Positions 41,825-46,991 of a DNA stretch of 46,991 nt are shown piece after piece. The stretch is from positions 1 to 46,991 of the forward strand of contig NCCR01000008.1 of the NCBI GenBank assembly GCA_002279765.1, given 5' to 3'. The notes under the pieces were generated by a model. The model was not told the origin of the DNA. It saw only the letters and a program-made list of their open reading frames with translations, and did no database searches. A program made the position numbers and the translations under genes. Each line of letters opens with the position of its first letter. Within the stretch, counting starts at the first letter, position 1. Source of the DNA: Verrucomicrobia bacterium 12-59-8. GTDB lineage: Bacteria > Verrucomicrobiota > Verrucomicrobiae > Verrucomicrobiales > Verrucomicrobiaceae.

Positions 41825-43243
41825 CTACACGACCGGCTGCCCGATCTCACGCCACGGTCCCTGCTTAAGAACGATGTCCGGCACGAGTGACTGCCAACTG
41901 AGATCGCGGGCGTGGATCATGTTGCGCACTTCGGCACTGGTGTGGAAGAGGAAGGTCTGGTTGGGCTCCTCCAGCGAACGTACGCTCTTGGTTTCGATGA
42001 GGTAACGCAGCAGGTGTTTTTGCTCGGGAGTCACACGTGCGTCGTTCAACCCGAGAATCTGGCCGTTCATCGGGTTGCCCATAGGATAGACATAGACACG
42101 CACCTGGTTTTTGAAAAGCCGCCCAAAGGATTCGAGCAGGCCGCCTTCGAGATCGGTACACCAGCGTTCGTTGAACAGCTCCTGGAACAAGGGCAGGCCG
42201 AGCACGATACCGATGGGGCACTGCGTGTGGCGCGCGAGGTAGCTGCTGACGCGGTGGAACTCCGGATAGTTCGAAATGAGCACGTTTTTGCCGAGCGCCT
42301 GCAGCACGTCTGCACGCGCGAGGAATTCGGTGTCCGGCACCTCGGCACCACTGGCGAGGAGGTTGTGCATGGTGATTTCGAGAATCTCGATGTTGTTGCG
42401 GGCTTCATCACCAAAATCTGCCTGAAACGCGGCCTGACCGCGCTCGATCATGTCGAGATTGAGCTTGGTAATGGGATCAAAGCTGCCGCGCTTGAGGAAG
42501 ACCGGCTTTTTGTAAAGCACATCTGAAGCCTGCCAGATTTCGCCATCAGCGCCGAACAATGCGGCGTCAGCCAGACCGAGGCGGACGAGCTTCAATGCCA
42601 CGAGGCGATCCTGGAACTCCGAGGCGGCGAAGGCGGGGCCGGAGAAGTCGATCATGTCGATTTCCACACGCTTGCGGCTCACATCATCGAGCAGGCTTTG
42701 AAGAAATGTGGAGAGGTCGTGCCGCAGATAGAAGGCGGCGTAGATAAAATTGACGCCCAGTTTGCCGAGTGCATCCGACTGCCGCGCATTGGAGACGTCG
42801 AGGAGCCGCACATGCATATGGACTTCGTTGCTCGGACCGCCAGGGTCGGTCTGAAAACGCATGCCGATCCAGCCATGACATTCCTCCTTGGTGTCGCGAT
42901 AGGAACGAGCGCGCACGGTGTCCGCCAGGGTGAAGAAGGTGGTGGTGGTGCCGCGCTGGGTGTTCAAACGCTGGATGAGCATGGGGTACTCATGCTCCAG
43001 CATGGCGCACATGCGCTGACGCGAGACGTAGCGGGAACACTTGCCGTAGATCTCGTCGCTGATGGTCATGTCATAGGCAGACATGGTTTTGGCCACAGTG
43101 CCTGAGGCACCGCCGGCGCGGAAGAACCAGTTGGCGATTTCCTGACCGGCACCGATTTCAGCAAAGGTGCCGTAGATGGTGTGAGCGAGATTGATCTTGA
43201 GCGCTTTTTCAAGCGTGCCGGGGCGGTCGTTAACAGGATTCAT
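41825..43243 (-). CDS. Conserved protein of unknown function (472 aa)
   Basis: The 472-aa product contains the strongly conserved N-terminal phrase YGTFAEIGAGQEIANWFFR and SGTVAKTMSAYDMTISDEIY, then a run with HGWIGMRFQTDPGG, LGVNFIYAAFYLRHD and IEIDMIDFSGPAF. From memory the same family occurs across Bacteroidetes and other phyla under misleading names such as nicotinate-nucleotide adenylyltransferase or TonB-dependent receptor. No nucleotide-binding motif, signal peptide or membrane segment is visible, so it is cytosolic. No function is assigned. It starts 9 nt after the MidA-type methyltransferase gene and is followed by the YhaM-like gene. Confidence 0.8.
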   Translation of the reverse strand: MNPVNDRPGTLEKALKINLAHTIYGTFAEIGAGQEIANWFFRAGGASGTVAKTMSAYDMTISDEIYGKCSRYVSRQRMCAMLEHEYPMLIQRLNTQRGTTTTFFTLADTVRARSYRDTKEECHGWIGMRFQTDPGGPSNEVHMHVRLLDVSNARQSDALGKLGVNFIYAAFYLRHDLSTFLQSLLDDVSRKRVEIDMIDFSGPAFAASEFQDRLVALKLVRLGLADAALFGADGEIWQASDVLYKKPVFLKRGSFDPITKLNLDMIERGQAAFQADFGDEARNNIEILEITMHNLLASGAEVPDTEFLARADVLQALGKNVLISNYPEFHRVSSYLARHTQCPIGIVLGLPLFQELFNERWCTDLEGGLLESFGRLFKNQVRVYVYPMGNPMNGQILGLNDARVTPEQKHLLRYLIETKSVRSLEEPNQTFLFHTSAEVRNMIHARDLSWQSLVPDIVLKQGPWREIGQPVV

Positions 43244-43252
43244 GTGATGGCT

Positions 43253-44218
43253 TTATGATGCGCACTCCAGACGGCGATGCACGAAGCATTTGAAAGCAGT
43301 TCCGGCTCCCTCGGAATCTGTGAGCCAGGCTGGCGCAGCGTGTGAATGCAGAAATTCGGCCAGGGTCTGCTGGGAGGCCTGTGAGAGGCCGAGTTCGTGC
43401 AGCCAGGCGGCGTAGTCTGTGAAGTTGATGTCGGCGGTGATGTCCTGGCGGCCAGGGTTGGCATAGATGTCGGCTCCGGTGAGTCTCTGATGCAGCAGAT
43501 AAGCACGCAGCGTGCCGTGTGGCCGCCGATGGTAGAGCCGGGGAAATTCGTCGCCATAATCGATGGTGAGCATGGCACCGCTGCGCCAATGCGGAGTCCA
43601 TTGGTGCAGCCAGTCGCGCACGCTGAGGTGAAGCTCGCAGCGCTGGCGGTCTGCAAAGGTGGTGTGACGCAGCGCGCTGTAGTGGGCGGCGTCTAGAGCC
43701 TGCGGATGCAACTGCTCCGGCACCCAGACCTCAAGCCAGCGCTGTGCGGCGGCGTCCCATTGAACGAGCGTGGCGGGGAAGGCGTCGAGGAGTTCGTTAT
43801 GGTAGATGAGTGCGCGACCCTGCGCGGCGGCGAGTGCGGATTCGAGAGAGTTGTGCCACGTCACCTTAGCACCCAGCTTCTTCTGCTGCTCCTGCCGCAG
43901 CACGGGTGAAGTCTCGACGATGTGAAAGGTGAAGCGGCGGCGCGCCCACCAGCCAAGAGACTGGCGCACCGCCTGGATGAGCGAGCCATCACCTGCGCCG
44001 ATCTCGATGACATGACGAACGTACGGTTGAATGCGCGATTCTGCTTTGATCCAGACAGCGACGGCTTGCCCCAATGCCGGTGATAGCGTCGCGGAAGTGG
44101 AGAAGTCGCCGCTTACACCGACGGTCTTGATATGGCGGGTGTAGTAGCCGCGTTCGGGATCGAACAGGGCGCGCGCCATGAAGGCGGAGAAGGGCTCAGA
44201 AACTGCGGATGATTTCAT
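43253..44218 (-). CDS. MidA/NDUFAF7-type SAM-dependent methyltransferase
   Basis: A 321-aa methyltransferase of the DUF185 family. FDPERGYYTRHIKTVGVSGD is the family's N-terminal signature, VIEIGAGDGSLIQAV is the SAM-binding Gly loop, and ALIYHNELLDAFPATLVQW matches the conserved N-E-x-x-D-A-x-P motif. The mitochondrial homologue dimethylates an Arg of the complex I 49-kDa (NuoD-like) subunit during assembly; whether the bacterial protein does so is unknown. Its start overlaps avtA by 23 nt, so the two are translated from one transcript. Confidence 0.88.
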   Translation of the reverse strand: MKSSAVSEPFSAFMARALFDPERGYYTRHIKTVGVSGDFSTSATLSPALGQAVAVWIKAESRIQPYVRHVIEIGAGDGSLIQAVRQSLGWWARRRFTFHIVETSPVLRQEQQKKLGAKVTWHNSLESALAAAQGRALIYHNELLDAFPATLVQWDAAAQRWLEVWVPEQLHPQALDAAHYSALRHTTFADRQRCELHLSVRDWLHQWTPHWRSGAMLTIDYGDEFPRLYHRRPHGTLRAYLLHQRLTGADIYANPGRQDITADINFTDYAAWLHELGLSQASQQTLAEFLHSHAAPAWLTDSEGAGTAFKCFVHRRLECAS

Positions 44219-45446
44219 CGGCGATGATCTGCAAGCCTTCGCTTACGATGTGCTCCGGCTGCGAGTAGGTGAGACGCAGGCACTCATGCGGATGACGCCA
44301 CTCTTTCTCCAGGCCGTAGGCGAAGTAATGGCCGGGGATGACGAGCACCTTACGTTCTTTGAGCCGGCGATACAGTTCTGCAGCAGGGATGGGCAGGCCA
44401 TTGACCCAGAGCCAGAGGAAGAAGGCTCCCTCCTGGGCATGCAAGGCCCACGGGACGCGATCTCCCAGCGCTGATGCGAGAACGGATTTGGCGAAGTCGG
44501 AGCGTTCGCGGTAGAAGGGGCGAATGACCGAGGGGCCGAGTTTGACGAGGGTGTCGTCTTTGAGCAGCGGCATGAGGAGCGCCTGGCCGAGATTGCCATT
44601 CGCCAGCGAGACGATGGCGTTCATGTTTGAGAGCGCCTTCACGATGTGCGGATCGGCGACGATCATGGCGGTGCGCAGGCCGGGCAGGCCGACCTTGCTC
44701 ATGCTGATGCTGAAGATCATGCCCGGCTGCCACTTGGGCTGGAAGCCATTGTGGATGACCCCGGGAAAGGGATGGCCGTAGGCGTTGTCGATGATGAGCG
44801 GGATGCCGTGGGCGTCCGCCAGCGCGTGCAGACTGTCGAACTCGTTTTGAGTGAGTACGTTGCCCGTGGGATTGGTGGGGCATGAGACACACATCGCGGC
44901 GATGTCGGGCGTGATGCGCAGCTGATCAAAATCGACGTGGTATTTGATCTCGTTCGGGGCGGTTTCGACAATGCGTGGCAGACAGGCGGTGAACTGTCCG
45001 GCGCTGAGCGCCTGATTGGCGTAGCCAATGTATTCAGGCAGCAGCGGGAAAAGAATACGGCGCTTGGTCGTGCCCGTCTGACCGGCGAGCAGATTGAAGA
45101 GCAGGAAGAACGCCGACTGCGAACTGGGCATGACCGCGATGTTCTCGTGGGTCACATTCCAGCCGCATTCGCGCTTGAGAAAGGCGGCGAAGGCTTCACG
45201 GAAGAGCGGATTGCCACCGGGGGGATCGTAGTTGAGGAGTGTGCGGTCGATGCTGCCGTCGTCGAGCATGGCGTGCATGCGGTCGCGCCAGAGCTGCTGC
45301 ACGGCGGGAATGGCGGCAGGCTGGCCGCCGCCGAGCATGCGCATGTCTGGATGCGTGGTGAGCGCGGCACCGCAGTCATCCATGAGTTCCTGGATGCCGC
45401 TGGGGCCTGCAAGGCGCTGGCCGATGTCTGAGAAGGTTGGTTGCAT
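44196..45446 (-). CDS. avtA: Valine-pyruvate aminotransferase (AvtA type)
   Basis: A 416-aa PLP-dependent class I aminotransferase that resembles E. coli AvtA throughout: MRMLGGGQPAAIP, SSQSAFFLLFNLLAG, FPLLPEYIGYANQ, SCPTNPTGNVLT, LIIDNAYGHPFPG (Asp220) and SISMSKVGLPGLR with the PLP Lys251. It would interconvert valine or alanine with their 2-oxo acids. ATG 45446 overlaps the DUF2452 stop by one base (TGATG); a TTG lies one codon upstream. Confidence 0.9.
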   Translation of the reverse strand: MQPTFSDIGQRLAGPSGIQELMDDCGAALTTHPDMRMLGGGQPAAIPAVQQLWRDRMHAMLDDGSIDRTLLNYDPPGGNPLFREAFAAFLKRECGWNVTHENIAVMPSSQSAFFLLFNLLAGQTGTTKRRILFPLLPEYIGYANQALSAGQFTACLPRIVETAPNEIKYHVDFDQLRITPDIAAMCVSCPTNPTGNVLTQNEFDSLHALADAHGIPLIIDNAYGHPFPGVIHNGFQPKWQPGMIFSISMSKVGLPGLRTAMIVADPHIVKALSNMNAIVSLANGNLGQALLMPLLKDDTLVKLGPSVIRPFYRERSDFAKSVLASALGDRVPWALHAQEGAFFLWLWVNGLPIPAAELYRRLKERKVLVIPGHYFAYGLEKEWRHPHECLRLTYSQPEHIVSEGLQIIADEIIRSF

Positions 45447-45901
45447 CAAGAGGCGACAGAGGTCTGCACCCAGTCGCGAATGCTGAAATCTGGCGCAGCT
45501 TTTTCAATCTGCCAGCGGCCGTCTGCGTTTAGTCTGACACTGCCGAGCCAGCGCTGATGCCACTCCTCGGGTGCGATCATGCTGAGCTGGCGCCCGCCCT
45601 CGACTTCGTAGAGGTGATAAACCTCGCCACAGACAGGTTCGAAACCGAAGTGGCTTTCGTAGATGAGCTTGTTCCAATTGAACGCGTCGATGACTTCCAT
45701 GTAGCGCTCCTGGATTTCGACCATCTCCTGCTGGAGCACGCGCTCGACACGGGAGACGCCGCGGGATTTGAAGCTGGTGAGATCCTGGGGGATGATTTTG
45801 GCAGCGAGGCGCGAAACCGGATACGACAGGTAGTTGCCCCGAGGTTCAGGGGCTTGAAGAGCAGCGTCAATAGGGTCCAAAGCGGGGGCGTTTTCTCTCA
45901 T
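45446..45901 (-). CDS. DUF2452 protein
   Basis: A 151-aa protein with the DUF2452 pattern: LSYPVSRLAAKIIPQDLTSF, a helical stretch ending NWNKLIYESHFGFEPVCGEV and YHLYEVEGGRQLSMIAPEEW. The function of the family is unknown. The ATG at 45901 gives the conserved start; the frame runs open to 46066 with a non-conserved Arg/Ser/Cys-rich leader. First gene of the run continuing with avtA. Confidence 0.75.
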   Translation of the reverse strand: MRENAPALDPIDAALQAPEPRGNYLSYPVSRLAAKIIPQDLTSFKSRGVSRVERVLQQEMVEIQERYMEVIDAFNWNKLIYESHFGFEPVCGEVYHLYEVEGGRQLSMIAPEEWHQRWLGSVRLNADGRWQIEKAAPDFSIRDWVQTSVAS

Positions 45902-46595: not shown

Positions 46596-46629
46596 AAAGC
46601 CCTGTGAGGAGTGATCCCCACAGGGCTTT
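46596..46629 (-). terminator. Strong hairpin terminator after the ppdK / H1-like frame
   Basis: AAAGCCCTGTG (46596-46606) pairs perfectly with CACAGGGCTTT (46619-46629) around a 12-nt loop. Read on the minus strand it is followed by CTCGTTTTATTTTAA, an intrinsic-terminator T-tract. The plus-strand lipoprotein gene ends 62 nt before it and may use it too. Confidence 0.8.
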
Positions 46630-46633
46630 GGGA

Positions 46634-46673
46634 GGCGGATTACTCCGCCACATTGACCTCGTCAGGAGGTCAA
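46634..46673. repeat. Two further adjacent hairpins
   Basis: GGCGGA-TTAC-TCCGCC (46634-46649) and TTGACCTC-GTCAG-GAGGTCAA (46653-46673), both perfect, sit between the H1-like stop and the terminator. With the terminator they make three successive stem-loops within 80 nt, possibly protecting the 3' end of the transcript. Confidence 0.6.
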
Positions 46674-46680
46674 CGCGTTA

Positions 46681-46782
46681 CTACTTCTTGGAAGCCTTCT
46701 TTGCCGCTTTCTTGGCGACCTTCTTGACGGCTTTCTTTGCGGGCGCCTTTTTGGCGGCTTTCTTTGCAGCTTTCTTAGCCAT
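46681..46782 (-). CDS. Histone H1-like Lys/Ala miniprotein (nested in the ppdK frame)
   Basis: A 33-aa product starting [17 protein letters not shown], made almost only of Lys and Ala with single Pro, Val and Ser residues, like the tails of bacterial H1/HctB/AlgP-type DNA-binding proteins. It has its own ATG at 46782 and an AGAGGA ribosome-binding site 8 nt before it. However, it shares its reading frame and stop with the upstream pyruvate phosphate dikinase frame, so it may exist separately, as a tail of that enzyme, or as both. A very short basic protein could bind DNA or RNA non-specifically. Confidence 0.55.
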
Positions 46783-46991
46783 GGTGTTTATCCTCTGTTT
46801 GTTGTTGGTTGCGTTGTTGTTTTGTTTTGCCACGGACGCGCTTTTGGCACCTCCACGGACACTTTTTCCTGCGGCGGCCGGAGCGGCGGCGCGCTTTTCT
46901 TCGATCGCGGCCTGCGCTGCGGCAAGGCGTGCGACCGGGACCCGGAAAGGACTGCAACTCACATACGTGAGGTCTGCACGATGGCAGAATT
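46681..46991 (-). CDS. ppdK: Pyruvate phosphate dikinase, 3' end with basic C-terminal extension (partial)
   Basis: The frame enters from the window edge. Its first visible residues, [20 protein letters not shown] followed by [13 protein letters not shown], are the conserved C-terminus of pyruvate phosphate dikinase (PEP-binding domain), which normally ends about here. In this sequence no stop follows: the frame continues through an Ala/Lys/Gly linker, an Asn-rich stretch ([14 protein letters not shown]) and then the Lys/Ala H1-like tail to the TAG at 46681-46683, about 70 extra residues. I verified codon by codon that the frame stays open. A lost stop codon or a sequence error between 46783 and 46890 is the alternative. 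Confidence 0.75.
46791..46796 (-). promoter_or_regulatory. Shine-Dalgarno for the internal H1-like start
   Basis: AGAGGA on the minus strand, 8 nt before the ATG at 46782, in an A/C-rich, T-poor stretch that looks like a leader. It supports independent initiation within the ppdK frame. Confidence 0.5.

Follow-up and report, generated by a model that had tools for sequence, protein, structure and literature searches.

A fused Lys/Ala tail and a predicted nested start at the 3′ end of ppdK in Verrucomicrobiaceae

The ppdK 3′ end and its surroundings

The window, i.e., the whole stretch of 46,991 nucleotides that was analysed (contig NCCR01000008.1 of Verrucomicrobia bacterium 12-59-8, positions 1 to 46,991), ends within the gene for pyruvate phosphate dikinase (PPDK), ppdK, which lies on the minus strand. 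The features of this locus are collected in Table 1. The frame from 46989 to 46681 is open over 102 aa and runs off the window end, with its TAA stop at 46683-46681, and no stop separates the ppdK C-terminus, the linker and the Lys/Ala tail. Window residues 1-29 match positions 837-865 of the 865 positions of TIGR01828, the NCBIfam model of pyruvate phosphate dikinase (E 5.9e-10, 37.8 bits). Solved PPDK chains match the same stretch, and the best of them, 2x0s, aligns to residue 41, into its own C-terminal extension; the conserved C-terminus that the first-pass annotation had recognised is thus identified by both sources. The PPDK fold itself is already known. The window is without approximately the first 880 residues of the enzyme, and the complete gene was read in relatives only, where TIGR01828 matched at full length above its curated cut-off in 16/16 relatives first searched and in 62 of the 68 family genomes, in agreement with the full ppdK expected upstream.

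Approximately 1.2 kb beyond the ppdK stop, a valine-pyruvate transaminase is encoded on the same strand (44196-45449; NF006964, 529.3 bits vs a cut-off of 467). A 472-residue open reading frame near this aminotransferase (41825-43243, minus strand) has no Pfam match and reaches 12.9 bits in NCBIfam, far below the cut-off.

Table 1. Features at the 3′ end of ppdK in the window, and tailed RsfS genes in relatives.
Feature	Position	Strand	Basis
ppdK C-terminal end, 33 codons	46891..46989	-	TIGR01828 and PDB PPDK chains; EEKR ends at 46891; remainder outside window
In-frame linker, 36 codons, stop-free	46783..46890	-	Frame reading; length-variable but in frame in relatives
Conserved GTC CGT (Val-Arg) codons in linker	46855..46860	-	Codon columns across relatives
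Conserved GCA ACC AAC codons in linker	46812-46804	-	Codon columns across relatives
A/C-rich, nearly T-free leader 5′ of nested start	46783..46818	-	Base counts at -36 to -1, 55 relatives
Shine-Dalgarno-like AGAGGA, 8 bases 5′ of nested ATG	46791..46796	-	Sequence; SD 4-mers in relatives
Nested in-frame ATG	46780..46782	-	Met in 60/62 family 3′ ends; ATG 55/55 in codon set
Lys/Ala tail or predicted free peptide, 33 aa	46684..46782	-	16 Lys and 12 Ala
TAA stop common to both predicted products	46681..46683	-	Frame reading
3′ UTR, three stem-loops: 46671-46655, 46649-46634, terminator-like 46629-46596	46596..46671	-	Consensus fold
RsfS with Lys/Ala tail	L248 1117-1626; L250 1039-1626	+	HC2 search, PF02410

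The fused frame in the family and its relatives

With the neighbouring aminotransferase as the query, 51 loci were obtained, the nearest of which are labelled Prosthecobacter or Verrucomicrobiaceae, and in this set the frame continues into the tail in all 15 loci that include the ppdK end. Across the family, 68 genomes were searched with TIGR01828; a readable 3′ end was obtained from 62 of them and from none of the remaining 6. It was found that ppdK, linker, Met and Lys tail share one frame in 60 of these 62 3′ ends. The exceptions are L099, which breaks off inside the linker at a contig end, and L120, which has a direct tail with neither linker nor Met and whose PPDK clusters in the tree with PPDKs from genomes outside the family. 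Of the 60, three have tails that are not readable in full: the contigs of L092 and L110 end within the tail, and L105 contains a masked stretch there. The same frame is present in the isolate Brevifollis gellanilyticus NBRC 108608 (L023 in G013; ppdK locus L065) and in L106, on a contig of 7,957,748 bases. A stop before the tail was found in none of the 61 family 3′ ends that reach it, and no family 3′ end was seen to be out of frame. The reading of the PPDK C-terminus straight into the tail, as first described from the window, therefore holds for the family, and the agreement of 60/62 3′ ends rules out assembly error or chance as the source of the fused frame.

The statistics below rest on 55 sequences, i.e., the 60 with Met minus the masked L105 and the short loci L124 and L144-L146. 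On a tree of these sequences, no fewer than 26 changes in length are needed for the linker and no fewer than 38 for the tail, and tails range from 19 to 79 aa in relatives in which they are complete. Over 70 close pairs (core pS <0.4), pN/pS rises from 0.08 in the core to 0.33 in the linker and 0.42 in the last 14 codons before Met; limits of 0.25 (29 pairs) and 0.55 (314 pairs) agree in direction, and the genomes and pairs in these statistics have common ancestry. The pN/pS value of 0 in the first nine tail codons is partly by construction, given that M[AP]KKA served as the pattern for picking rows; every one of the 62 3′ ends was nonetheless inspected. Maintenance of the frame through at least 26 linker length changes, together with the linker ratio of 0.33, supports by comparison a fused tail that would be translated and under purifying selection.

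Among public proteins, 26 matches to the C-terminal part were considered, of which 22 are 970-1032 aa and 4 are 781-874 aa long; 15 of the 26 are named, and every one is called pyruvate phosphate or orthophosphate dikinase. Several unrelated public PPDKs selected for Lys-rich tails have Met at the tail border at the protein level (P0027, P0030, P0034, P0053, P0061, P0090, P0100). Tail counts among public proteins are not frequencies because the proteins were chosen by similarity, the larger list being the best 120 of 6899.

Outside the family, 76 order-level loci, best-scoring or hand-chosen out of 239 genomes searched, include 38 PPDKs with direct fused Lys tails, and Met is absent from 37 of these 38. 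The exception, L126 (606-3815, minus strand), comes from another family represented by one genome and has a very long Lys-rich PPDK tail with gaagaggagacacccATG in frame at the tail start, which makes it a second case of an SD-led in-frame ATG at a PPDK tail start. Across the phylum sample, long Lys tails on PPDK are rare: none occurs in the 21 loci with the motif (29 loci, 8 without it), and 60 further 3′ ends (46 phylum, 14 order; 1 without the motif) gave only three short direct tails, L259, L297 and L299, all without Met. The enzyme part of the relatives is a full-length PPDK as described by TIGR01828. Most of the PPDKs sampled in the phylum differ from them and finish at most about 12 residues past the conserved C-terminus.

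An order-wide tree, built from the 133 rows in which 600 or more core residues were present, comprises 27 without tail, 11 with short ends, 39 with direct Lys tails, 55 with linker and Met, and 1 unclassed; it is a gene tree, in which transfer is possible. At least 6 changes on this tree are required to explain the state of linker with Met, and direct tails are placed both within that group and outside it. Such a placement suggests an early gain of linker and Met, followed by at least one joint loss in which the fused tail stayed behind.

The comparison of relatives also bears on a ppdK stop followed by an independent H1-like gene, the arrangement that had been named as the refuting one; it was found in 0 of the 61 family 3′ ends reaching the tail and in none of 97 order and phylum outgroup loci. 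The downstream scan of these 97 loci gave 7 matches, namely 5 fused tails themselves and 2 unconvincing frames, and an ancestral separate H1-like gene adjoining ppdK is not supported. Similarly, the exact head MAKKAAKKA has 61 matches in 60/68 family genomes, and by coordinate comparison 57 of them adjoin a ppdK match, on which ground a free-standing paralogue of the tail was rejected. The four matches away from a ppdK match are G028:C14, G034:C28, G044:C689 and G052:C79; that in G028 is the start of a longer protein, by eye a clostripain-like protease, and those in G044 and G052 may belong to a missing ppdK piece because ppdK there is broken by contig ends.

Nucleotide constraint around the nested ATG

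The Lys/Ala repeat had been described as having its own ATG and AGAGGA site, and both are present in the window at the positions given in Table 1. Across the codon set the ATG is invariant (55/55), and the 36 bases 5′ of it are almost T-free. An SD 4-mer (AGGA, GAGG, GGAG or AAGG) lies at -16 to -6 of the nested ATG in 44/55 relatives vs 2.8 expected when the same residues are back-translated at random with each genome's own ppdK codon usage, and the spacing to the ATG is 7-9 bases where the SD is present. Anti-SD pairing energy likewise departs from the random synonymous versions at p<0.05 in 44/55. The 4-mer is missing in 11/55, including Brevifollis (L065), and 8 or more changes on the tree are required to explain this trait. 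The 16S end with the anti-SD was found in 4 of 7 genomes; the remaining genomes may lack an assembled 16S gene. With at least 26 linker length changes without loss of frame and 44 SD 4-mers where 2.8 are expected, the layout exceeds chance.

Codon choice around the start is also unusual. AGG makes up 40% of Arg codons in the linker vs 1% in the core, and AAA occupies the fourth tail codon in 55/55 vs 29% of core Lys. Synonymous change (pS) is 0.128 in the leader (last 14 codons) and 0.102 in the first nine tail codons compared with 0.286 in the core, i.e., two- to threefold lower. In terms of structure, the nested ATG is the most open in-frame ATG in 49/55 genomes (mean -2.9 vs -12.4 kcal/mol for the others), and openness goes beyond the amino-acid expectation (p<0.05) in only 25/55. 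In only 10/55 does the nested site pair more strongly with the anti-SD than every other in-frame ATG does, and the median nested-site pairing is equalled or exceeded at 77 of the 1588 other in-frame ATGs. At the 42 ppdK starts inferred in L052-L124 by a heuristic, none of the four SD 4-mers occurs at -16 to -6; translation of ppdK itself therefore seems to begin with no clear Shine-Dalgarno site. Taken together, the comparison supports a nucleotide constraint at the putative nested start which the amino acids do not explain, and what is expected of an in-frame nested gene, namely a conserved start, a ribosome binding site and an open context, is found at this site, apart from the SD 4-mer in 11/55.

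Two further codon groups in the linker, GTC CGT and GCA ACC AAC, are nearly invariant, more so than any core codon column scored for the residue concerned. At the Val-Arg position, relatives use GTC in 54/54 with Val and CGT in 50/53 with Arg. The two groups lie approximately 39 and 11 alignment codons upstream of the nested ATG, respectively.

Tail function, alternatives and known parallels

Of the 33 residues of the window tail, 16 are Lys; its resemblance to H1 is one of composition only, and its peptide has no Pfam match. The tail on PPDK is presumably disordered. Membership in the HC2 histone family (PF07382) was rejected since the gathering cut-off of 40 bits is not reached: neither the window tail nor L056 gives a match, and P0021 scores 34.4 bits. 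The precomputed database annotation names HC2 on 2 of the 26 public matches, P0021 and P0023. In a scan of the window and loci L001-L031 the ppdK tail was the sole Lys/Ala run, and such tails are thus uncommon. When five genomes were searched with HC2, eight matches were obtained, none of which reaches the cut-off. These include RsfS (ribosome silencing factor, PF02410) with a C-terminal Lys/Ala tail in G001 and G013, which is also seen by eye in G028, and a Lys-rich N-terminus on Rho in G028; of the remaining matches, one lies at the start of a protein that weakly matches a metallo-beta-lactamase, one is a small protein, and two are not runs of this kind. Because Lys/Ala runs occur on RsfS and Rho, RNA or ribosomes are indicated as much as DNA, and because one also occurs on the protein with the weak metallo-beta-lactamase match, such segments need not mean RNA or DNA. 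Binding of the tail to nucleic acids or other polyanions is predicted from its composition and from the similar RsfS tails in relatives.

The first-pass annotation had offered a tailed enzyme and nested in-frame genes as alternatives; the comparison supports both at once, with a fused frame that is kept and under selection and a predicted start constrained at the nucleotide level. The best explanation, to which we assign a probability of roughly three in four, is that one gene and one mRNA give two products, a tailed PPDK and a free polycationic peptide, which would bind RNA, ribosomes or DNA. Initiation at the ppdK start would yield PPDK with a flexible linker and a polycationic tail resembling the C-terminal domain of histone H1. 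Ribosomes may also bind at AGAGGA in the unstructured A/C-rich leader and start in frame at the nested ATG, as the nucleotide-level conservation suggests, to release the free Lys/Ala peptide. Both tail and peptide would bind polyanions, most likely RNA, ribosomes or DNA. The enzyme could then be tethered at polyanion sites, and the free peptide could occupy or compete for the same sites; this proposal draws on the tail composition, the runs on RsfS and Rho, and the mycobacterial HupB protein, whose PAKK/KAAK domain is needed for nucleoid association (PMC5676037). A wider version is held only tentatively, at somewhat less than even odds: the same Lys/Ala segment would tether PPDK when fused and act as an independent histone-like peptide when internally started, pyrophosphate/ATP metabolism and nucleoid or ribosome state would be expressed from one mRNA, and the arrangement would have arisen more than once, in the family and in the lineage of L126.

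The Lys tail may instead be only an appendage of the enzyme, for solubility or as a tether to ribosomes, nucleoid or polyphosphate, with the ATG and SD-like site as remnants or kept for other reasons. The lack of Met in 37/38 direct tails outside the family and in L120 within it agrees with this explanation, as do the 11/55 relatives without an SD 4-mer and the small share (10/55) in which the nested site pairs most strongly with the anti-SD. It does not account for the ATG in 55/55, the 44 SD 4-mers vs 2.8 expected, the lowered synonymous change in leader and head, or the SD and ATG found where the tail begins in L126, a separate lineage; we consider it unlikely. Initiation at the nested ATG is also challenged by the idea that the conserved nucleotides around it serve an RNA signal for processing, pausing or regulator binding. 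The near-invariant GTC CGT and GCA ACC AAC codons do lie away from the ATG, and the 3′ UTR resembles a conserved structured element; yet initiation agrees with the invariant ATG, with the open site and, where an SD is present, with its distance of 7-9 bases, and an RNA signal is considered distinctly improbable. The least probable explanation, to which we give very little weight, is that a formerly independent H1-like gene was fused to ppdK through loss of the ppdK stop, so that the short product alone matters and the fusion is tolerated. Leader and head do resemble a normal gene start, but the frame was kept over at least 26 linker length changes with a linker pN/pS of 0.33, no separate H1-like gene lies just downstream of ppdK in the 97 outgroup loci, and 57/61 exact heads in the 68 family genomes adjoin a ppdK match.

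Both principles behind the two-product reading have been reported elsewhere. In the Rpn genes-within-genes (RpnL/RpnS), the C-terminal segment, which is variable and bears repeats, is produced both within the full-length protein and on its own, from an in-frame start inside the gene (PMC10327210). Rpn is a nuclease toxin that has an inhibitor of its own; ppdK differs in that the host is a housekeeping enzyme, the small product is a Lys/Ala polycation and the internal start is predicted here. Similarly, an in-frame internal Met in cas8b gives the C-terminal small protein Cas11b, a CRISPR effector subunit that was shown experimentally in an archaeon with low SD use (PMC11899642). For Salmonella, 26 in-frame pairs are reported in a survey (PMC11005335). 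As for the tail, HupB carries H1-like C-terminal Lys/Ala/Pro repeats, on an HU protein and not on a metabolic enzyme, and no nested start is described in the consulted part of its source (PMC5676037). Actinobacterial TopA is an enzyme with a C-terminal lysine-repeat tail; it already acts on DNA, and the consulted part of the source describes no nested product (PMC7398561). The first-pass annotation knew of no described example of this arrangement. Within the terms searched, the open-licence literature gave no paper whose title or abstract deals with a PPDK that is Lys-tailed or nested. Since in-frame nested genes and H1-like tails are each known elsewhere, the novelty lies in their combination and in the host gene; what is new here is the host gene, the kind of nested product and the family-wide conservation. 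If the two-product reading is true, it represents a gene-within-a-gene inside a housekeeping enzyme, conserved across a bacterial family and hidden because databases list the long frame only. It would also offer directly testable dual coding, with a fused tail and a free peptide from a single frame, and a possible link from pyrophosphate metabolism to nucleoid or ribosome binding in Verrucomicrobia.

The 3′ UTR, for its part, was folded by consensus from the window and 14 hand-picked relatives out of 53, and two-sided compensatory change was seen in 11 of 26 pairs. Rfam gave two matches below the gathering scores only, ncS01 (26.5 of 58 bits) and ctRNA_pGA1 (21.3 of 45). The three stem-loops are possibly a regulatory element, and some other relatives have a different first stem-loop.
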